From a virus: 30,735 nt of DNA. Location: IMG/VR virus record IMGVR_UViG_3300048997_000068, positions 1-30,735 of that record. One strand, given 5' to 3'. Below, piece after piece: positions 4,053 through 30,389 of the stretch (its first letter is position 1; every line of letters starts with the position of its first letter). The notes beneath the pieces are model-generated. The model had not been told where the DNA came from and searched no databases. It saw nothing but the letters and a program-made list of their open reading frames with translations. A program made the translations under genes and the position numbers.

Positions 4053-4361
4053 ATGCGCGAGCATTACGACCAGCAGGGCCTGGAGCATCCGGCGGACTTC
4101 TACCCGCCGGACATCTTGCCCCAGGCGGTGCCTTTCCTGAACGCGCTGAACCGGCTCGCCGCGGACCGGCCGCGCCTATCCCTCGGCATGTCGGGAATCG
4201 TTGTTTACGGCCGCATCCCGTTTCTTTCCGTCGATCGCTATGCCGCCCGGCACGGCATCGATGGGGTGTCGGAGTTCGCGCGGTTCGATCGCATCATCGG
4301 TGCCGTCGATAGCTTCGACGTTGAATATCTCAATGAGCAGGCCGCCAAGAAAACCAAATGA
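4053..4361 (+). CDS. Tail assembly chaperone, second frame (gpT-like)
   Basis: A 102-residue reading from ATG 4053, five bases after the first chaperone frame stops, in the -1 frame relative to it. It contains PPDILPQAVPFLNALNRLAADRP and ends AAKKTK. In lambda the second domain (T) is made only as the G-T frameshift fusion and binds the tape measure. Here the open frame extends back through the slippery site, so the functional product is probably the fusion spanning 3595-3993 and 3993-4361. The stop overlaps the tape measure start (ATGA, 4358-4361). Confidence 0.65.
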   Translation: MREHYDQQGLEHPADFYPPDILPQAVPFLNALNRLAADRPRLSLGMSGIVVYGRIPFLSVDRYAARHGIDGVSEFARFDRIIGAVDSFDVEYLNEQAAKKTK

Positions 4362-7300
4362 ACATTGAGCAAGTCGTTCGAGAGGTCAAAATTGTCGGCT
4401 CCGTCCAGGGTATGGACGGGGTCGCGAAGGCCTATGGCGACGTCACCGATGGTGCGGACAGGGCCGCTGTTGTTACCGACAAGGCGACCAAGGCGCAGAT
4501 CAGCGCCGCGAACGCGATTGAGAAACTGCGCCTGAATTACCAGGACGGCTATCGGCAGCAGCAGAAATTTACCGACGCGCAGGCGGCCTATCAGCGCGCC
4601 GAAGAGCAGGGCCTGATCACGAAGAAAGCCGCCGCCGCCGAGCTGGTGAATATCCAGAACAAGCTCGGCCAGACGACCAACGCGCAAAAAGCCATGGGCA
4701 CTGTCACATCCGATCTCAACAATCGCGTGCAGGCAAGTGCTGGCGCCTTCGGGGTAGCGGGTGCGGCGTTGAGTGCGCTCGGTCCGGTTGGCATTGGTGT
4801 GGCCGCGGTAATGGGCGCGGTTTATCTTGCCATCAACCACATGATCTCGGAAGCCGATCGCATGGGCGAAGGCGCGCTCGCGATGCGCGCGTTCTCCGAA
4901 ACGACGGGGCTTTCGATCAGCCAGCTCAAGTCCCTCGGCAAAGCGGGCGCGGAATTTGGTGTCGGCACAGACGTTATCGCCGCAAGCGTCGACAAATTCA
5001 CCATCAATATGGAGGAGGCGCGAAAAAGCACAGGCAAGCTATTTGACGAAGTTCGTATGATTGATGGCGGGCTGGCTACTGAGCTGGCCGCTACGAAAAC
5101 GACAGCGCAGGCGTGGGATGTGCTGGCGAAAGCAAGGAACGCGGCGTCAGACCAGTCCAAGAACGCGCTGTCAAAGGCGGCGTTCAATAAGGGTGGCCTG
5201 GAAACCGGTCTCGTGCTGGACGTGACGGCGGAGGCCGGCGGGCTAGAGGCACTGGTAGCCAAACAGCAGAAGCTGAATGGGCTCACCGACGATCAGATCA
5301 AGAAATGGGGAATTACCAAAGTTCAGATCGAGGAAACGCAAAAGCGCACCGCGAACCTGATGGCGGCGACTTATACACAGGAGGTGCTTGATCGCCTGCT
5401 GCAGGCCGCGCAGCTGGAAGAGCGCGTCACGCGCGCGCTGATCGACAGCAACGCGCAGCGCCAGAAGGGGCGGAGCTACCTCGACCTGTTCTCCGCCGGC
5501 GTTGACACCAATCCGGTGACGCCGCGCGAGGCGGCGAACTCCAACCTGGCCGCGGGCCTCTCGTCGGGGCAGAAGCCCGATCTTTCCGGCTACGACGCGA
5601 TGGCAAAGAAGCTGTGGGAAGTCGCCTCCGCCGAGAAAGCCGTAAAGGACGCGCGCAAGGAAGCGGCCGACGCAGCGACCGGGCAGTCCAATCTGCTGAA
5701 GGAACAGATCGGCTATCTTGGTTCGGCGGCGACCGCGGACGAGAAGCGCGCGCAGAAACTGAAGGAACTGGAAGCGGCGTATTTAACCAGCAAGGTTTCG
5801 GCGGAGACCTATAACCGCGCCGTCGCGGCCGTGAACTTGGACACCGCTATCGCCAAACAAAGCGCATACGTCAGCGCGCTCGGGGCCTCGGCGCCCATCG
5901 CGGAACTGGTGAAAGACAAGGAACTGCAGCTGCAACGGCAGCGCCAGCAGGACCCGCGCATCACGCAGGCGATCATCGACCAGCAGAAAGCCTTGGTCGC
6001 CTCGCAGCAATTGGGCACGTTCCAGATCGACGCCATGACAGCGGCCGAGAATGTTCGGATCGCGGCGTTATTCAAGTCGAACGAGGCGGGAATCGCTTAC
6101 GCGATTGTGCAAACAAAAATCAATGAAGCGAACGCTCTCGGCAAACCGCTGCAGGATGATGAAATTGAAAAGCTCAAAAGGTCCGCGGATGCGTTTGCTG
6201 CCGTAAAGGTAAAGGGTGATGCCTATACCGAATTGATGAATACCGCGCGGCAGTCCGCAACGTCGTTCACAGGGGACCTGATTTCCGGGCTGCGCGATGG
6301 CAAGACCGGAATGGAGGCCCTTTCGGCCGCTGCAACCAACCTATCAAAAACCCTAACCAACTCTGCGCTGACCGATCTGTTCAAGGGCAACTTTCTGCAG
6401 GCTGGGGTCGAAGGCATCGCCGCGCTGGTCTCCGGCGTCCTTGGAAACAATACCAAGGGAAACCAGTGGTACCAGCAGCAACTGGACGGCATGAACACCC
6501 GCAATGCGCAGTATCAACAGCGCATCGCAGCCGCCGGGATAGATACCAATACCCGCGCCGGCGCCATCGCAGCTCAAGACGCGCAGTTTACGCAAGAACG
6601 CATCGCCGAGAACAAGGCCGGCGGCCAGGCCATGAACGCGCTGCTGCAGGCCGAGCTGGATGAGCGCATTGCGCTGCAGAAGGATTGGGACGCCAAGGAT
6701 CTGGCCAGCGCGCAGGCGGCGCTGGATGCCAAGGCCGCGGTGGAGAAGGCCGCGGCGGACAGGTCGCTGACGTTCCAGAACCGCCTGTTCGCGGCGACCA
6801 ACGATTTCTCGAGCCTGGAAGGCCAGCTCGCGGCCTTCGACCGCGCCGCGCAGCAAGAGCGCATTACCGAAGCGCAGAACGGCAACCAGGCGATTGTCGA
6901 TCTGGAAGCAGCCCAAGCCGCCGAGCGCTTCAACGTGATCAAGAGCTATAACGACAAGATCGTGGCGGACAGCGAGGCCGCCGCCAAGGCGGTGCATGAC
7001 GCGCAGAATTCGGCGACCAAGAATATTCTGGATTACGTCAACAGCCTTACCGCCGGCTCCAGCTCCGGTCTCTCGCCGCAGGGCCGCTTCGACGCCTCCC
7101 AATCGGCGTACAATGCCAAGCTGGTGCTGGCGCAGTCCGGCAATGTCGACGCGCAGGGCGGCATCACCACGGATTTCGAGAACTACCGGCAGGCTGCGCA
7201 GGCGATGTTCGGCTCGACGGCGGCCTATCAGCAGATTTTCTCGACCGGCATCCAGCAGCTGCTCAATCTGCCGGTGGTGCAGGCGACCACGGATCCGGTT

Positions 7301-8692
7301 TTGGTGGTGATGCGCGACGTGCTTACCGCCATCAACGCCGGCATCCTGACGCAGGCGACCGACGCCACGCTGGTCGGCACCATCAAGGCCGCGATCGACG
7401 CCGGCAACGCCGCGCAGGTTGCGACCGCGCTCAGTACCTATTTCAACGCCATCGATACCAACACCAGCCAGTCGATCGATTTCAACGAAATGAAGTCCGC
7501 GCTCGGCGGCATGGTCAACGATGCGGCGCTGCGCGACATGTTCACGCGGCTGGATACCGACAATTCCGGCGCGATCGACCGCCTCGAACTGATCAAGGCG
7601 GCTTCGCAGGCGACCACGACGGCGGCGCAGAGTATCGATCACGCGACAAGCGTTGATATTATCAATGCGGTCAACGCGGGCAACGCCACGGCGGTGGCGA
7701 ATGCGCTCAGTAACTATTTCAACGCCATCGATACCAACACCAGCCAATCCATCGATTACAATGAATTGGTCACGGCGCTTACGCCGGTCGTGACAAACAC
7801 CAACGGAACAATAAACCAGGCGGCGACCACGGCGGCGCTGGCAACCATGGCGAACAATGTCGCGTTGCGCGACATGTTCACGCGGCTCGACACCGACGCG
7901 TCGGGATCGATCGACAAAATGGAGTTGATCCGCGCGCAGTCAGCGGCGACCAACACCAATACCGGAAACACCACAGGATATCTCGTAAACGGAATTGCGC
8001 CGCTTCTGGATGCGATCAGGGCGTTACAGAGCACGGCGAATACCCAACTTCAACTCCTGAACGCGGGTATCAATCCCGCGGCCAACGGGGTCATTATTTC
8101 ATTTATTACCGCCGGTGCCGGCACCAGCAACCCTACGCTGGGGCATGCTGCGTTCGGCGATCAGATGCTTACGACTTTGTACAAGATCTCCGTGAACACC
8201 TGGGCTATTGCAGGCAATACTCGCGGTTTGGCGGGTGGTGCGGCCCGCGACGGGACGTTCGCCTCTGGCGGCCTGGTCACCGGCCCCGGCACCGGAACGT
8301 CGGATTCCATCCGGGCCATGCTTTCGAACCGGGAATACGTGATACCGAATGCCCGGGTTGAGCAGTTCGGGGTTTCGTTTTTCGATCAATTGCGCGCCGG
8401 CATTCTGCCGCGGTCGATTGCGAACGACAATTTCTCGATCGCGAACGACCATTTCGTTCCGTATCCGGCCTGGGCGCCGGCCCACGCGGCTCACGGAGAC
8501 AACGCAGATGCTCGCGCGCTGCTGGCAGCGATTGCGCGGCTGGAGACCCGCCTGGCGGCAATCGAAGGCAACACCGATCGCACGGTGCGCGCTACCGTCG
8601 CCGGTGCCGAGCATGTTGGCGAGCGGGTCGATCGTGTCGCGGACGCTGCGCAGGATGCGGCGCGCGAACAAAAATTTGTATTGGCCGCGTAG
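4358..8692 (+). CDS. Tape measure protein with four EF-hand loops
   Basis: A 1444-residue protein, the longest gene here, translationally coupled to the chaperone. It is the ruler around which the tail tube assembles. The N-terminal 120 residues are helical and coiled-coil-like (IEKLRLNYQDGYRQQQKF). A hydrophobic Gly/Ala segment spans about residues 128-162. Long Ala/Gln/Lys-rich helices run to about residue 1000. Two similar units of about 80 residues follow (about 1000-1200), each with a pair of canonical 12-residue EF-hand loops: 1033-1044 DTNTSQSIDFNE, 1066-1077 DTDNSGAIDRLE, 1125-1136 DTNTSQSIDYNE and 1178-1189 DTDASGSIDKME. All have D1, S/N ligands, I8, D9 and E12. Near the C-terminus, GGLVTGPGTGTSDSIRAMLS followed by an N-x-E-Y-V-I element is the usual C-terminal motif of siphovirus tape measures. 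Calcium binding is inferred from the loops. Confidence 0.9.
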   Translation: MNIEQVVREVKIVGSVQGMDGVAKAYGDVTDGADRAAVVTDKATKAQISAANAIEKLRLNYQDGYRQQQKFTDAQAAYQRAEEQGLITKKAAAAELVNIQNKLGQTTNAQKAMGTVTSDLNNRVQASAGAFGVAGAALSALGPVGIGVAAVMGAVYLAINHMISEADRMGEGALAMRAFSETTGLSISQLKSLGKAGAEFGVGTDVIAASVDKFTINMEEARKSTGKLFDEVRMIDGGLATELAATKTTAQAWDVLAKARNAASDQSKNALSKAAFNKGGLETGLVLDVTAEAGGLEALVAKQQKLNGLTDDQIKKWGITKVQIEETQKRTANLMAATYTQEVLDRLLQAAQLEERVTRALIDSNAQRQKGRSYLDLFSAGVDTNPVTPREAANSNLAAGLSSGQKPDLSGYDAMAKKLWEVASAEKAVKDARKEAADAATGQSNLLKEQIGYLGSAATADEKRAQKLKELEAAYLTSKVSAETYNRAVAAVNLDTAIAKQSAYVSALGASAPIAELVKDKELQLQRQRQQDPRITQAIIDQQKALVASQQLGTFQIDAMTAAENVRIAALFKSNEAGIAYAIVQTKINEANALGKPLQDDEIEKLKRSADAFAAVKVKGDAYTELMNTARQSATSFTGDLISGLRDGKTGMEALSAAATNLSKTLTNSALTDLFKGNFLQAGVEGIAALVSGVLGNNTKGNQWYQQQLDGMNTRNAQYQQRIAAAGIDTNTRAGAIAAQDAQFTQERIAENKAGGQAMNALLQAELDERIALQKDWDAKDLASAQAALDAKAAVEKAAADRSLTFQNRLFAATNDFSSLEGQLAAFDRAAQQERITEAQNGNQAIVDLEAAQAAERFNVIKSYNDKIVADSEAAAKAVHDAQNSATKNILDYVNSLTAGSSSGLSPQGRFDASQSAYNAKLVLAQSGNVDAQGGITTDFENYRQAAQAMFGSTAAYQQIFSTGIQQLLNLPVVQATTDPVLVVMRDVLTAINAGILTQATDATLVGTIKAAIDAGNAAQVATALSTYFNAIDTNTSQSIDFNEMKSALGGMVNDAALRDMFTRLDTDNSGAIDRLELIKAASQATTTAAQSIDHATSVDIINAVNAGNATAVANALSNYFNAIDTNTSQSIDYNELVTALTPVVTNTNGTINQAATTAALATMANNVALRDMFTRLDTDASGSIDKMELIRAQSAATNTNTGNTTGYLVNGIAPLLDAIRALQSTANTQLQLLNAGINPAANGVIISFITAGAGTSNPTLGHAAFGDQMLTTLYKISVNTWAIAGNTRGLAGGAARDGTFASGGLVTGPGTGTSDSIRAMLSNREYVIPNARVEQFGVSFFDQLRAGILPRSIANDNFSIANDHFVPYPAWAPAHAAHGDNADARALLAAIARLETRLAAIEGNTDRTVRATVAGAEHVGERVDRVADAAQDAAREQKFVLAA
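7360..7950 (+). repeat. Tandem duplication encoding two EF-hand pairs
   Basis: Two in-frame copies lie at about 7360-7615 and 7640-7950. They share long nearly identical stretches, for example TATTTCAACGCCATCGATAC and GCGCGACATGTTCACGCGGC, each present in both copies. The second copy carries an insertion of about 20 codons between its two EF-hand loops. The encoded core is A-G-N-A, then N-Y-F-N-A-I-D-T-N-T-S-Q-S-I-D, a helix, then L-R-D-M-F-T-R-L-D-T-D. The nucleotide similarity suggests a fairly recent duplication. Confidence 0.8.
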
Positions 8693-14609: not shown

Positions 14610-15890
14610 ATGACCGACGACGCCTCTTTCGGCGCGGCGCTGACGCGCCTGTGGCCGCACGCTCCAAAACCCCTGCTCGAGGGCATCATCGCCACCGCGC
14701 CGGCGGTGTTCGAGAAATACGGCTTCGGGCCGCTCGAGCAGGCGCATTGCATGGCGCAGATCAGCCACGAATGCGGCCAGGGCCACGAAACGATCGAGAA
14801 CCTGAATTATTCCCCGGAAGGCATCGTCCGGACCTGGCCGTCGCGCTTTCCCTCGCTCGCCGCTGCGGTACCATTCGCGCACAAGCCGCAGGATCTCGCC
14901 AACAAGGTCTATAACGGACGCATGGGCAACCGGCCCGGCTCCAACATGGGCTGGACCTTCCGCGGCCGCGGCGCCACCAACACCACCGGCCATGACGGCT
15001 ATTACGCGCTGGCGCAGAAGACGGCGCTGGATCTGTTGAACGATCCGGACCTGGTCAACCGCCCGGACAAGTTCCTGGAATGCGGGGTGGTCGATTTCAT
15101 CCTGTGCGGCTGCGTCCCCTTTGCCAAGGCGGACGATTGCCGCAACGTCACGCGCCACCTCAATGGCGGGCTCATCGGGCTCGCCCAGCGCGAGGACTGG
15201 CTGCGGCGGTGGAAGTCCGCGCTTCTGCCGGTTCACGGCGCAGACGCCCTTTTCCCGCCCGCCACGCCCCCTTCCGAGGGCGAGCTCCGGTTCGGCGATT
15301 CCGGCTTCGAGGTGAAGGGGCTGCAGGGCGGCCTGAAGGCCAAGAACTACGCCTGCGGCACCGACGACGGGGACTATCTGGAAGGCACCCGCGGCGCGGT
15401 CGCCAAATTCCAGCTCGACCACGGCCTGCCCGCCACCGGCATCGCCGACCGCGCCACCCGGGATGCCCTGGAGAGGTCCCCGGGCGCGCCGATCGCCGAG
15501 GCGCGCGCCACCGCCACGGTCCAGGATCTGCGCGAGAAAGGATCCCGCACCGTCGCCGGCGCCGACCGGGTGTCGTTCATCGGCAAGATCAAGGCCTGGC
15601 TCGGTATCGGCGTCACCAGCGGCGCCTTGGCCGGCCATGCCGGCGCGCTGGATCTGGATAGCGTCCAGGGCGGCGTCGACCGGGCGCAGCAGGCCGCCGG
15701 CATGCTGGACCAGCTGAAGGGCCTCACCGCGCCTTTGGCGGGCTTCCTGAAGCCGCTGCTGGTGCATCCCGCCACGCTGCCGATCGCCGCCGGGATCGCT
15801 ATCGGCGGCATCCTGCTGGTGATCGAGGCCCGGCGCATCCGGCGCGCGCGGCTCGACGATCACCACACCGCTACGAATATGGGGCGCTGA
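14610..15890 (+). CDS. Endolysin: GH19-type lytic domain, peptidoglycan-binding domain, C-terminal membrane segment
   Basis: A 426-residue cell-wall hydrolase with AGGA 7 nt before ATG 14610. The GH19 chitinase/lysozyme-like domain covers about residues 10-215. AQISHECGQGHETIENLNYS holds the probable catalytic acid E54, followed by DLANKVYNGRMGNRPGSNMG, WTFRGRGATNTTGHDGYYAL and ECGVVDF. A peptidoglycan-binding type 1 domain lies at about 226-290 (LRFGDSGFEVKGLQGGLK, then GAVAKFQLDHGLPATGIADR). The last 50 residues contain one hydrophobic segment (about 385-407) followed by RRIRRARLDD. That membrane anchor is an addition to the usual two-domain endolysin and implies delivery to, or retention at, the inner membrane. 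It is the first gene of the lysis cassette. Confidence 0.85.
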   Translation: MTDDASFGAALTRLWPHAPKPLLEGIIATAPAVFEKYGFGPLEQAHCMAQISHECGQGHETIENLNYSPEGIVRTWPSRFPSLAAAVPFAHKPQDLANKVYNGRMGNRPGSNMGWTFRGRGATNTTGHDGYYALAQKTALDLLNDPDLVNRPDKFLECGVVDFILCGCVPFAKADDCRNVTRHLNGGLIGLAQREDWLRRWKSALLPVHGADALFPPATPPSEGELRFGDSGFEVKGLQGGLKAKNYACGTDDGDYLEGTRGAVAKFQLDHGLPATGIADRATRDALERSPGAPIAEARATATVQDLREKGSRTVAGADRVSFIGKIKAWLGIGVTSGALAGHAGALDLDSVQGGVDRAQQAAGMLDQLKGLTAPLAGFLKPLLVHPATLPIAAGIAIGGILLVIEARRIRRARLDDHHTATNMGR

Positions 15891-15892
15891 CC

Positions 15893-16300
15893 ATGCTGTC
15901 GATTGCTGGCATCGCGCTCGCCAACGGCGTCGCGCTCATCCCCGGAGGCGGCGCCGCGGCCGGCGCCGTGGTTTCCGCGTTCGGCTACCTGCTCCGCTGC
16001 GGCACCTGCCTGAAGGTGCTGGGCGTGGTGGCGCTGGTCGGCTGGACCGCCCTGCACGTCCACCATGCGGACGCGGCGCGCTGCGAGGCGCGCATCGAGG
16101 ACGATCACCACAAGGCGGAGGCCGCGGCCAGGAACCGCGACAGCTCGATCGCCGACGATCTCGGCAAAAAGTACACCCCGGAAATCAAGCGGCTGAAGGA
16201 TATGAACGCCGCGCTGCAGAAGAAGGTGGAAGATGCAAAGAAGCAAAAGCCTGCGCCTGGCGGCAAGTGCCGCGTCGGCGCTGCTGCTGGCCTCCTGTAG
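15893..16300 (+). CDS. Inner-membrane spanin subunit (Rz-like i-spanin)
   Basis: A 135-residue protein, ATG two bases after the endolysin stop. It has an N-terminal Gly/Ala hydrophobic stretch, a second stronger hydrophobic segment at about residues 39-57 (CLKVLGVVALVGWTALHV), then a charged helical periplasmic part. That part (CEARIEDDHHKAEAAARNRD, YTPEIKRLKDMNAALQKKVE) has heptad-like spacing. This is the Rz layout: membrane anchor plus periplasmic coiled coil. A lipoprotein gene is nested over its 3' end in the +1 frame, exactly the Rz/Rz1 arrangement, and that is the main support for the call. Confidence 0.75.
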   Translation: MLSIAGIALANGVALIPGGGAAAGAVVSAFGYLLRCGTCLKVLGVVALVGWTALHVHHADAARCEARIEDDHHKAEAAARNRDSSIADDLGKKYTPEIKRLKDMNAALQKKVEDAKKQKPAPGGKCRVGAAAGLL

Positions 16301-19221: not shown

Positions 19222-20145
19222 TCATTCCAGATCCTCCCGCAGTCCTTTGAACACCGGATGACGCACCTTGCCTTCGGCCGATTTGGCGCGGTACTCGATC
19301 TCCGCCAAAACCGACGGCTCGACCCAGATGCCGCGGTGGGTGATCTTTTTTACGTAAGGCTGGGTCTTGCGGACCAGCGGCGCCAGGCGGGCCCGCAGCT
19401 CTTTTGCCGAGGCCGGGGTAAAACCGTGGTCGACCTTTCCGGCATAGACCAGGTCCATGCCCTTGCGCCGGCCGACGAAGATGCCGTCCCATTTGCCGTC
19501 ATCGAGCGCGAAACCCGCGATCGGCAGCGTCTCGCGCTGCGCGCAGGTGACCTTCACCCAATCGTTGGTGCGGCCCACGGGATAGCGGCTGTCCCGCACC
19601 TTGGAGACCACGCCCTCGAGGCCGGTCTTGCACGCGTGCTTGAACATTTCCCGGCCCTCGAGTTCAAAGCTCTCGCTGAACTGGATGGCCGAGTTTCCGA
19701 TCAGCTTTTTTAGCGCGGCCTTGCGCTCCAGGATCGGGAGGTTTCGTAGATCCTGCCCGTTGAGATAAAGCAGGTCGAAGGCGACCATTACCAGCTTTTT
19801 GGAATTGCCCTTCAGCTCGTTTTGCAGCACGGAAAAATCCGTGGTGCCGTCCGCGGCGGGGACCACCACCTCGCCGTCGATGATCGCGAAAGCCGCATCG
19901 ATCAAAAACGCATCGCCTGCGATCTTGCTGAATCGCTTGGTCCAGTCGTTGCCGCGGCGGGTGTAGATTTTCACGTCGTCGTTGATGATGTGGAGCTGCA
20001 CCCGGTAGCCGTCGAACTTGATCTCGTGGATCCATCGCGCGCCGGACGGCGGCTTCTCGATCGGGCTCGCCAGCGCCGGCGTGATGAAGCCGGGATAAGG
20101 CGCCTTGACGCCGATGGCAGGCTGTTTTCTACGCTGGAACGCCAC
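19222..20145 (-). CDS. ATP-dependent DNA ligase (LigD ligase-domain type)
   Basis: A 307-residue stand-alone ligase that seals nicks using ATP. GTG 20145 is chosen over GTG 20154 because GGAG lies 8 nt before it and the first GTG overlaps that ribosome site. Motif I is EIKFDGYR with the adenylated Lys43. Motif III is FAIIDGEVVV, motif IV is LEGVVSKV, and motif V is DWVKVTC. The C-terminal 90 residues (LVYAGKVDHGFTPASAKELR, KKITHRGIWVEPSVLAEIEY) are the OB-fold domain. The arrangement is that of the LigD ligase module without its polymerase and phosphoesterase parts. It belongs to the phage replication operon and probably joins replication intermediates. Confidence 0.9.
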   Translation of the reverse strand: MAFQRRKQPAIGVKAPYPGFITPALASPIEKPPSGARWIHEIKFDGYRVQLHIINDDVKIYTRRGNDWTKRFSKIAGDAFLIDAAFAIIDGEVVVPAADGTTDFSVLQNELKGNSKKLVMVAFDLLYLNGQDLRNLPILERKAALKKLIGNSAIQFSESFELEGREMFKHACKTGLEGVVSKVRDSRYPVGRTNDWVKVTCAQRETLPIAGFALDDGKWDGIFVGRRKGMDLVYAGKVDHGFTPASAKELRARLAPLVRKTQPYVKKITHRGIWVEPSVLAEIEYRAKSAEGKVRHPVFKGLREDLE

Positions 20146-20210
20146 GACAAACACTCCACTGACGGGGGATCAAGCGGCTTTGCCGCCAAATCGTTCCAGC
20201 TTGGAACAAG

Positions 20211-20901: not shown

Positions 20902-21435
20902 TTAAGGTCCTTCAACAGCTCGGGCAGTGGGCTGCGCGCCATCGCCATAGGGCATTGAGCTCGCCCGCGCCATGATGATGGCTACCCAGCGGCAGATGCG
21001 CTCGGCTGCGGCGCCCTGCACGCCGTCCCATTGCCCGGGATAATCCGGCCCGGGCCCGCGGGCACCGGTATGGAAACTCACCTGCCCGGTCGGCAGATCG
21101 ACGTAGAGGATGTGATGGTGCGGATCGCCGCGGCCGCGCAGCGCGTCATCAATCGCCCAACCCCACCACTGACGGAATATCGTCTCGCTGCCGATGATCG
21201 AATTGAGCGCCTCCGCCAGGTTGCGGATGCTCCAGTCCTTGCGATCGTAGGCCGCGGTCTTGTATCCACGGCCGCGGCGATACAGCTTGGCGCGCTCCGA
21301 GCATTTGCAGGCGCGGAACAGATTGACGCCAATCGCGCCGATCGGGCCCGACTGCTCGAGCTCGCGGTACAGCGCCCGGGTCGCTTCGCCGTCGGAGCCC
21401 TGGTAGACGCGAACGATATCGGCGTAATCGATCAA
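20902..21435 (-). CDS. Conserved phage hypothetical protein next to a PAPS-reductase-family gene
   Basis: A 177-residue protein. The only plausible start is TTG 21435, which overlaps the upstream stop as TTGA, so translation is coupled. It contains LYRELEQSGPIGAIGVNLFR, SERAKLYRRGRGYKTAAYDR, and then HHHILYVDLPTGQVSFHTGA and RGPGPDYPGQWDGVQGAAAE. The core (YVDLPTGQVSFHT and PGxWDG) recurs in phage proteins of many hosts, but its role is not known to me. Pairing with the PAPS-reductase-like gene may be functional. Confidence 0.65.
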   Translation of the reverse strand: MIDYADIVRVYQGSDGEATRALYRELEQSGPIGAIGVNLFRACKCSERAKLYRRGRGYKTAAYDRKDWSIRNLAEALNSIIGSETIFRQWWGWAIDDALRGRGDPHHHILYVDLPTGQVSFHTGARGPGPDYPGQWDGVQGAAAERICRWVAIIMARASSMPYGDGAQPTARAVEGP

Positions 21436-22451
21436 TGTGCTAACCGCCCGGTTTGTGCGGCGATCAGCGCGGCGTAGCGGCGATGAATTGCCGGTACGTC
21501 CAGATGATCCACCTCAAAGCCGACCGCGCCGCTGACAGTCTTTCGAACGATAGCGAGCACTGCGGCTTCGGCATCGGTCAGCATCCGCGTTGGCCAGCCC
21601 TTAACGTAGAGCATGCCCTTCGTGATCTGCTTTTCCGCAGCAATTCGGGCAGCCGCGCGCCGTTTCGCTTCGGCGAGCCCCCGGCGCTGCGCTTCGGTCA
21701 GGACCGATGGTGCGATGTCCCCGAGCCATCGGTAGCCTTGAAATGAGAATGTGCTGGCAATCTCCAAGCCTACGATCTCGCGGTAAATGTCGCGCGCTTC
21801 TGGCGCCGCGGCGGCCGTCGTCAAATCCTCTTCGCTCGACATGATGCAGAACTTGCAGGAAATGCGGGACATGCCGCGCGAATAGCCCTCGTGTGTCGCC
21901 AAGCCCTCATCCGCAACAGACTGGAACGCTTGCTCAAGCGACCAATCCGAGATCAGTCGCCACGTCCAAAACCTTCCCGATGCATCCTCGGCGGCCATCG
22001 TGCCGTGTGCCCGCGCAGCGCTTTCCTGCCGACGAATGCCGGTGATATTGACAAACGGTTGGCCCTTGAAGCGTCTCTTCAATTCCGCGGCAATGAGTTT
22101 GGTTTTCATCTCCGAGGTGCAAAATCGCATGCTCGGAGTGGACCACGGCAAAACCAACGTGACCGTCTCTAGATTGGCGTACCGCCGCACGCTCGATCGC
22201 CAACGTGCGTTCCATCGCTCCATCAGTCCGCCGGCTGCGCGTCGAACCGTAACGAGGTCGATCCGAAGATGGGCGGCGAGCCGTTCGCAGACCGGCAGCG
22301 AATCGTTCCACTCTACCGACCCGAGGTCGCTATGAATGAGGATGCGCGGCCCCGCATGCCCGACGCGATCGAGGTAGCGAATGGCGGCGATCGCTGCGGC
22401 CTGGCTGTCCTTGCCACCCGAAACCCACGACGGCCACCGGCGCACCGGCAC
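21432..22451 (-). CDS. PAPS-reductase-family protein (PP-loop), N-terminus apparently frameshifted
   Basis: A 339-residue reading from GTG 22451. It has the PP-loop SGGKDSQAAAIAA that binds adenosine nucleotide, then PRILIHSDLGSVEW, FCTSEMKTKLIAAEL, NITGIRRQESAARAHG and a C-terminal SCKFCIMSS. Those three Cys may ligate metal. This is the phosphoadenosine-phosphosulfate-reductase-like family found in phages and in DNA sulfur-modification clusters. The first eight residues look wrong. The other frame starts at ATG 22503, coupled to the GapR-like stop, and reads [20 protein letters not shown], then APVAVV. Dropping one base at 22427 joins it as VAVGVSGGKDS. The native gene was therefore probably 21432-22503. 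Role in the phage: nucleotide or DNA chemistry, unproven. Confidence 0.75.
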   Translation of the reverse strand: MPVRRWPSWVSGGKDSQAAAIAAIRYLDRVGHAGPRILIHSDLGSVEWNDSLPVCERLAAHLRIDLVTVRRAAGGLMERWNARWRSSVRRYANLETVTLVLPWSTPSMRFCTSEMKTKLIAAELKRRFKGQPFVNITGIRRQESAARAHGTMAAEDASGRFWTWRLISDWSLEQAFQSVADEGLATHEGYSRGMSRISCKFCIMSSEEDLTTAAAAPEARDIYREIVGLEIASTFSFQGYRWLGDIAPSVLTEAQRRGLAEAKRRAAARIAAEKQITKGMLYVKGWPTRMLTDAEAAVLAIVRKTVSGAVGFEVDHLDVPAIHRRYAALIAAQTGRLAH

Positions 22452-28838: not shown

Positions 28839-29236
28839 CGGCCGAGCCCGACCAGGAGCGCGTCACGACGGGTGGCCTCTATATCGGCTGGGACGAGCTG
28901 CACGATCTCGTGTCGCCGCGACTCGGCCGCGATCGGTTCCGGGCCGTCATCAAAGGAAAGATGGATCGGGAGGGTTTTCCACCGTTTCGTGAGGAGTGGG
29001 GCGGCTGGTACTGGCCAAAAGTCCGGCGCTGGCTGGACTCGGACAATGAGGTTGGGACAGATGGCTTCGTCGAGCAGGCCGAGGACGGACCGGAAGATTT
29101 CAATGCCGCGCCGAAGCGACAGGCCAGGGTTCAAGCGCGGCCGCCGCGCGTTGCCGTACTGGATCGCAAAACAGGTAAAGCCGGATCCGATGGGCTTCCC
29201 GGATCCTTGCATCGCCTTGCCGCCAGACAGCGATGA
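28835..29236 (+). CDS. Putative excisionase / recombination directionality factor
   Basis: A 133-residue protein from GTG 28835, overlapping the repaired upstream stop (GTGA). Residues about 15-70 read GLYIGWDELHDLVSPRLGRD, RFRAVIKGKMDREGFPPFRE, EWGGWYWPKVRRWLD, a winged-helix-like DNA-binding module that lies immediately upstream of the integrase gene. This is the usual position and size of an excisionase. Its last 44 codons overlap the start of the integrase gene in another frame, so the two are co-expressed. The 3' tail may be poorly conserved. Confidence 0.55.
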   Translation: MTAEPDQERVTTGGLYIGWDELHDLVSPRLGRDRFRAVIKGKMDREGFPPFREEWGGWYWPKVRRWLDSDNEVGTDGFVEQAEDGPEDFNAAPKRQARVQARPPRVAVLDRKTGKAGSDGLPGSLHRLAARQR

Positions 29237-30389
29237 CGCAATGCTAGACACGCTGTGCCAGGAACACACCGCGCGGCTCGATGCCTGGGTTGCCGCTCGG
29301 CTTGCCGAGCTGAGCGCCGACGTCGATGTGCCGAAGCAGCCGATCACCCGTTACGACGGTACGATGAAATCGGCCTGCAGGATCTATCAGGAACACCAGC
29401 ATTCCCCGTTTCACACCGTCAAGCACAACACCCGGAAAGCCTACATCACCTGTCTGAAGCGGATCGAGCAGACGGTGGGCGCCCGCATCATCAAGAACGT
29501 GACCGTCAACACCTGCAGGTTCTGGTACGGGGAATGGCGCAAGCCCGACTTCGAGGGCGACGTCGAACACATCGACCGCGCGCACGATACGATAGCGATG
29601 GTGCGCACCGTGATCTATTTCATGGCGTCGGAGCGCTATCAGGACTGCAAGGTCCTCGCCTCCGAACTCGACAAGGTGAAATTCGAGAAGGGCGGCGCGC
29701 GCAGCGAGGAGCTGACCTATCAGCAGGCCGCCGCATTCATCAAGAAGGCGCTGCAGCTGGGACGCGAGGGCGCGATGCCGTTCGACCGAGCGCTGAATAT
29801 GGCGATCGGCGTGGCGGCGCAGTTCGAGCTGCTGCTCCGGCAGATGGACATCATCGGCGAATGGGCGCCCGCCGGGGCCACCCGCAAGATCCCGGCCGGC
29901 ATCGGCAGCGTCGATCGCGGCAGCGAGCTGTGGATTGGGTTCTTCACCTGGGAGCATATCGCCGGATGGCGCTGGCGCATGAAGACGTCCAAATCCAAGT
30001 ATCGCGCGGCGCAGGATTTCGATCTGACGCGCTACAGCCTGCTTCACCCGCTGCTCGAAATGGTGCCGCTCGGCGAGCGCACCGGTGCGATCGTCAAAGG
30101 CGAGCATGGCCTGCCGGTGCGGGCCCGCAGCTACGGCAACTGGTTTCGCGACATCGCGCGCCAGGCTGGCATTCCTGACACGGTCTGGAATATGGATTCG
30201 CGCGCCGGCGGCGCCACCGAGGCGCACGATGCCGGCGCGGCGCTTTCCGCAATCAGCAACGCGATGACGCACACCGAGGAGCGCACCACGGTGCGCTACA
30301 TCCGGCGCCAGTCGAAAGGAAACGAGATCGTCGCCGAGGCCCGCAGCCAGGCGCGCAGGCGAAATGAAAACGACGGCGGAACAGGGTAA
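29103..30389 (+). CDS. Tyrosine-type site-specific integrase
   Basis: A 428-residue recombinase from ATG 29103. ATG 29061 is an alternative, and longer readings only overlap the excisionase frame. The N-terminal PGFKRGRRALPYWIAKQVKP and FPDPCIALPPDSDDA suit a DNA-binding arm domain. The core-binding region includes YDGTMKSACRIYQEHQ and TVKHNTRKAYITCLKRIEQT. Catalytic candidates are R246 (LLLRQMDI), K294 (RMKTSKSK), R367 (NMDSRAGG), H390 (AMTHTEER) and nucleophile Y399 (TVRYIRR). The usual His of the HxxR box is Met364. The gene ends 64 nt from the tRNA-Pro 3' end, as expected for a prophage integrated there. Confidence 0.9.
   Translation: MPRRSDRPGFKRGRRALPYWIAKQVKPDPMGFPDPCIALPPDSDDAMLDTLCQEHTARLDAWVAARLAELSADVDVPKQPITRYDGTMKSACRIYQEHQHSPFHTVKHNTRKAYITCLKRIEQTVGARIIKNVTVNTCRFWYGEWRKPDFEGDVEHIDRAHDTIAMVRTVIYFMASERYQDCKVLASELDKVKFEKGGARSEELTYQQAAAFIKKALQLGREGAMPFDRALNMAIGVAAQFELLLRQMDIIGEWAPAGATRKIPAGIGSVDRGSELWIGFFTWEHIAGWRWRMKTSKSKYRAAQDFDLTRYSLLHPLLEMVPLGERTGAIVKGEHGLPVRARSYGNWFRDIARQAGIPDTVWNMDSRAGGATEAHDAGAALSAISNAMTHTEERTTVRYIRRQSKGNEIVAEARSQARRRNENDGGTG

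Follow-up and report, generated by a model that had tools for sequence, protein, structure and literature searches.

The closest described counterpart of the protein analysed here is the tape measure protein (TMP) l10 of Lactococcus phage c2 (Ceduovirus), which matches the Pfam model TMP_3 and, like ours, has an EF-hand loop within the last third of its sequence. Its GenBank record notes an "EF-hand calcium binding domain" and a location at the tail tip, and the motif has been linked to Ca2+-dependent adsorption (PMC7150918, published in 2020). The c2 protein differs from ours in having one full loop (IIDKNKDGKVSNEEM), which scores below the Pfam cut-off, in lacking tandem pairs or an array, and in belonging to a phage of a Gram-positive host. 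A further counterpart, gp77 of EBPR siphovirus 2 (JF412297), is homologous in the C-terminal half of the TMP and has an EF-hand pair at the same place, one pair as against two; its annotation reads "similar to tail protein" only and makes no mention of EF-hands. Among cellular proteins, Pfam PF13499 and the calmodulin-like domain of plant CDPKs share the arrangement of two hands whose loops are of DxDxSG type and spaced by about 33 residues. Unlike these, the module described below is embedded in a phage structural protein, and its odd-numbered loops have Gln at position 6 and Asn or Ser ligands, which may mean weaker binding.

The setting of such a module in the virion is illustrated by phage JBD30, where the C-termini of the TMP trimer lie in the baseplate core and the TMP density within the tube is about 20 Å wide; expulsion of the TMP, followed by its refolding into a channel, has been proposed for that phage (PMC11445458). 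Siphophage tail tubes measure about 4 nm inside (PMC9022992), which would probably be tight for three folded EF-hand pairs abreast. In the literature searched, which omits most subscription papers, no account of TMPs with EF-hand pairs or arrays came to light; PMC5137146, PMC5795418, PMC5889276 and PMC8637289 mention both topics and do not describe EF-hands in a TMP. EF-hands in a TMP have one precedent, the single sub-threshold loop of phage c2, and tandem pairs or arrays appear to be undescribed in that literature.

The stretch of DNA analysed, called the window below, is a 30,735-base virus record from IMG/VR (Table 1). An earlier reading of the sequence alone (the sequence-only reading) took its 1444-residue protein to be a TMP. 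The window protein matches no Pfam or PHROG TMP model. It is a long protein encoded after the tail tube gene (PF18906) and two tail-chaperone-like ORFs and before ORFs of tail-tip type, and its relatives match TMP_2, TMP_3 or PHROG TMPs; because of this gene order and these relatives, we too assign it as a TMP. Residues 1299-1348 match annotated Rhodococcus and Pseudomonas TMPs in a tblastn search against phages, and the motif they contain is common to the TMPs of unrelated siphophages. Table 1 also lists features elsewhere in the window, and the phage may be temperate, judging from weak integrase matches towards the right end.

Table 1. Features of the window and of loci compared with it (window positions unless a locus is named).
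Feature	Location	Strand	Basis or remark
TMP gene	4358..8692	+	ORF, 1444 aa; contains the EF-hand array
Conserved ~70-aa TMP domain (aa 905-976)	7070..7285	+	alignments; upstream of the array in most relatives
EF-hand pair A, first copy of duplicated module	7391..7616	+	DNA repeats; Pfam
EF loop 1, DTNTSQSIDFNE (aa 1033-1044)	7454..7489	+	PS00018-like pattern
EF loop 2, DTDNSGAIDRLE (aa 1066-1077)	7553..7588	+	PS00018-like pattern
EF-hand pair B, second copy, with ~20 aa inserted between loops	7667..7952	+	DNA repeats; tree
EF loop 3, DTNTSQSIDYNE (aa 1125-1136)	7730..7765	+	PS00018-like pattern
EF loop 4, DTDASGSIDKME (aa 1178-1189)	7889..7924	+	PS00018-like pattern
C-terminal TMP motif (GG..GTGTSDSIRAMLSNREYVI...), aa 1299-1348	8252..8401	+	tblastn of window TMP against phages
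Endolysin-like protein	14610-15890	+	peptidoglycan-binding domain
Gene next after endolysin-like gene	15893-16300		weak Rz-like spanin match
ATP-dependent DNA ligase	19222-20154	-	both ligase domains present
Protein with PAPS reductase domain	21432-22451	-	
ORF with weak integrase matches	28872-30389	+	phrog_1, E 1e-6; near right end
L017 TMP without EF loops	L017:7479-12227		one or two relic entering helices, then Thr/Asn-rich tracts
L019 TMP without EF loops	L019:7476-12566		one or two relic entering helices, then Thr/Asn-rich tracts
L114 TMP with six pairs (IMGVR_UViG_2617270908_000001)	L114:2904-10205		Pfam TMP_3
L007 TMP, 2000-aa ORF	L007:4443-10445		reads in frame into the apparent next tail gene; natural fusion or sequencing error

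The four EF-hand loops that had been claimed for this protein are borne out. They are in frame, and a PROSITE PS00018-like pattern matches nowhere else in any of the window's six frames; in shuffled versions of the TMP it matches 0.02 times on average and at most once. Each 12-residue loop has acidic or polar ligands at positions 1, 3, 5 and 9, a hydrophobic residue at 8 and Glu or Asp at 12, and five Pfam models (EF-hand_1, _5, _6, _7 and _8) exceed their gathering cut-offs in the protein, the best at E 6.2e-16. A profile of the pair matches EF-hand proteins in the PDB across both hands, with the calmodulin-like domain of CDPK as the best match (E 2.5e-10). AlphaFold models place a helix-loop-helix at all four loops with low confidence (pLDDT 61.6 and pTM 0.25 for residues 970-1215; 62.4 and 0.34 for pair A alone), too low to support a claim that the two hands pack together; Foldseek and VIA-align searches with these models returned no significant match, the few EF-hand chains listed by Foldseek having E values of 8-10. 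Two other identities were rejected. A type I dockerin is not indicated, with no PF00404 match in the window TMP at E 0.1 and borderline ones only in relatives, and lanmodulin-like lanthanide loops are set aside on position 2, which is Thr in all four loops and not the Pro that marks lanmodulin loops.

The arrangement in two tandem pairs within a duplicated segment near the C-terminus, also part of the sequence-only reading, is visible in the DNA itself. Positions 7391-7503 and 7667-7779 are 82% identical, and positions 7499-7616 and 7835-7952 are 70% identical. The starts of the loops are 33 residues apart in pair A and 53 in pair B, and the odd loops (1 and 3) are less canonical, since Gln replaces the usual Gly at position 6. 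The array begins 411 residues, and its last loop lies about 255 residues, from the C-terminus of the TMP. The conserved TMP domain precedes it and the C-terminal end follows, and this part of the protein is expected to be nearest the tail tip.

The module is not confined to this phage. It occurs in about 26 TMPs, that of the window and those of some 25 other phages and prophages, with one to twelve loops (one to six pairs) each. The searches gave 27 loci and 91 pattern-matched loops; the number of TMPs is lower because L081 and L096 hold the same one, and one of the loops, at residue 1071 of the L098 protein and outside its array, is probably due to chance. In most relatives the module stands directly behind the conserved domain of about 70 residues. 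Module searches located it in viral contigs (L002/L005, L004, L006, L007, L008, L015 and L016), in MAG contigs from a Xanthobacteraceae bacterium (L009) and a Hyphomicrobiales bacterium (L010), and in EBPR siphovirus 2, which provided the only credible EF-hand match when the modules were compared by tblastn with 50,697 phage records; weak matches to such records from two other queries (E 2-10) were dismissed as chance. A scan of the whole class brought up a module-bearing TMP that is more distant, of 2182 residues in G943, and the order of G943 has two further ones, of 2149 residues with two pairs and of 2186 residues with five loops. With the distant modules as queries, two scans of viral contigs yielded further long ORFs, in L096-L102, L104, L107, L109, L111, L112 and L114, the last a TMP of 2.4 kaa whose twelve loops form six tandem pairs. 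Family models (Pfam TMP_2, TMP_3 or PHROG TMPs) identify the TMPs of L004, L098, L100 and L114; the remaining loci, among them the fragment in L104, are assigned by length, shared C-terminal sequence or homology. L011-L014 and L115 were rejected, as their matches are to EF-hand proteins without the look of a TMP.

These counts bear on the claim that EF-hands in a TMP are unusual. It has to be softened in view of the 26 or so TMPs and of the precedent in c2. In bacterial genomes, strong matches are rare (1/397 in the order and 2/391 in the family of G001, at thresholds under which distant modules, scoring lower, would escape notice or be lumped with EF-hand proteins of the cell).

In 13 homology-aligned copies of the module, from which decayed copies were left out, D1 and E12 of loop 1 and D1 and G6 of loop 2 are invariant, and D3, S5 and E12 of loop 2 are nearly so. 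Ligand counts over the 91 pattern-matched loops carry no weight here as evidence of conservation, since Asp at position 1 and Glu or Asp at position 12 are built into the pattern. Values of dN/dS between module copies are 0.11-0.37 where dS is estimable (not saturated), and selection on the module is accordingly estimated to be purifying. Since the ligands are kept in homologous copies, metal binding by the module is strongly implied, and the loops in the window are very probably real EF-hands under selection for it. In some multi-copy arrays there are pairs that keep the second loop and have a decayed first one; therefore, not every site would bind.

A tree of 38 copies, built on few columns and with many forks lacking resolution, joins pairs A and B of the window as sisters (support 98/88); several other copies, too, cluster by the TMP that contains them. 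Since copies are often sisters within one TMP, the arrays have expanded more than once and independently. The two pairs of the window are best read, from the DNA repeats and this tree, as a lineage-specific tandem duplication of a genuine EF-hand module.

Close relatives show that a TMP can do without the module. The sequence-only reading had held that absence of the loops from close relatives would speak against it, and such absence is found in part: the TMPs of L017 and L019, which show 81-82% identity in the N-terminal region, have no EF loops. Both retain a matching entering helix (AVNAGNATAVANALKFYFDQID in L017), so that the absence looks like a loss. L017 and L019 indicate that a TMP can dispense with the module and still work. 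The TMPs of Caulobacter phage Sansa and of many prophages have the upstream domain of about 70 residues without EF-hands, and in the prophage TMPs of L083-L087 the slot of the EF-hands is filled by unrelated tandem repeats of about 25 residues (e.g., LGRDLTAAERAALVxxGxVxRT). The latter suggests that the C-terminal parts of TMPs hold a general site of module exchange.

The bacterial cytosol has free calcium at sub-micromolar levels, and levels are far higher in the periplasm and outside the cell. Because of this difference, a module near the leading end of the TMP would tend to be empty during assembly and to fill outside or in the periplasm. We propose that the EF loops of the TMP packed in the tail tube would be largely empty in the low-calcium cytosol, and that high calcium would cause them to fill and fold. 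This could happen at the tail tip once the cell has lysed, but would more probably happen in the periplasm, as they leave the tube. Folding in the periplasm would lock or pull the TMP segment that has emerged. The whole explanation, a genuine EF-hand module together with Ca2+-driven folding of a tip-proximal TMP segment, has in our estimate a probability of about 0.45; the part that is tentative, and falls somewhat short of even odds, is the switch in folding, be it at the tip or during exit, although no other function considered is likelier. Against the explanation count the low confidence of the models, the lack of a significant fold match, the decay of first loops in several multi-copy arrays, and the absence of the loops from L017 and L019, by which the function is not essential to all such phages.

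The same location near the anchored end of the TMP would also suit a static role, in which the EF-hands bind calcium in the virion, or a metal during assembly, and stabilise the C-terminal region of the TMP in the tip complex without taking part in movement. The distances of the array from the C-terminus, the placement of the TMP C-termini of JBD30 in the baseplate core (PMC11445458) and the tail-tip location noted for the c2 TMP are all consistent with such a lock. The range from one to six pairs and the absence in some relatives, however, suit a fixed fit in a hub poorly, and there would be little space within the tube and hub, so that we consider this role rather unlikely. Quite unlikely, in our view, is that the helix-loop-helix repeats only set the length or flexibility of the TMP, with metal binding incidental. 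The unrelated repeats in the same slot of some TMPs fit such a spacer and count against the switch, and the variable number of pairs and the loss of loops in L017 and L019, with the entering helix kept, point the same way; a spacer, however, would need neither D1 nor E12, few residues in the 13 aligned copies are as strictly kept as those at the ligand positions, and the module is under purifying selection. Chance or remnant acidic loops with neither fold nor function, which the low confidence of the AlphaFold models might suggest, are very improbable given the Pfam scores, the shuffled-protein statistics, the conservation across diverged TMPs and the independent expansions of the arrays.

One consequence concerns annotation, because TMPs with EF-hands can receive the names of unrelated EF-hand proteins. 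The EF-hand repeats of these TMPs score against the model of the XopAW family (NCBIfam NF041410). The window TMP scores 56, below the cut-off of 120, and the TMP of L114 scores 170.8, above it, so that automatic annotation could misname the latter as a type III effector. An effector function is set aside, as the proteins are TMPs that have only the EF-hand repeats in common with that family.

For the proposed calcium switch, a stronger form can be envisaged, in which the array is a calcium-powered ratchet that is empty and extended in the tube and folds pair by pair in the calcium-rich periplasm, driving the exit of the TMP or making it irreversible. We regard this form as doubtful; if it is true, tandem duplication would be the phages' means of tuning the array, between one and six pairs. 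For the release of the TMP by a non-contractile tail and the formation of its channel through the periplasm, a modular and countable array close to the tip would offer a direct handle.
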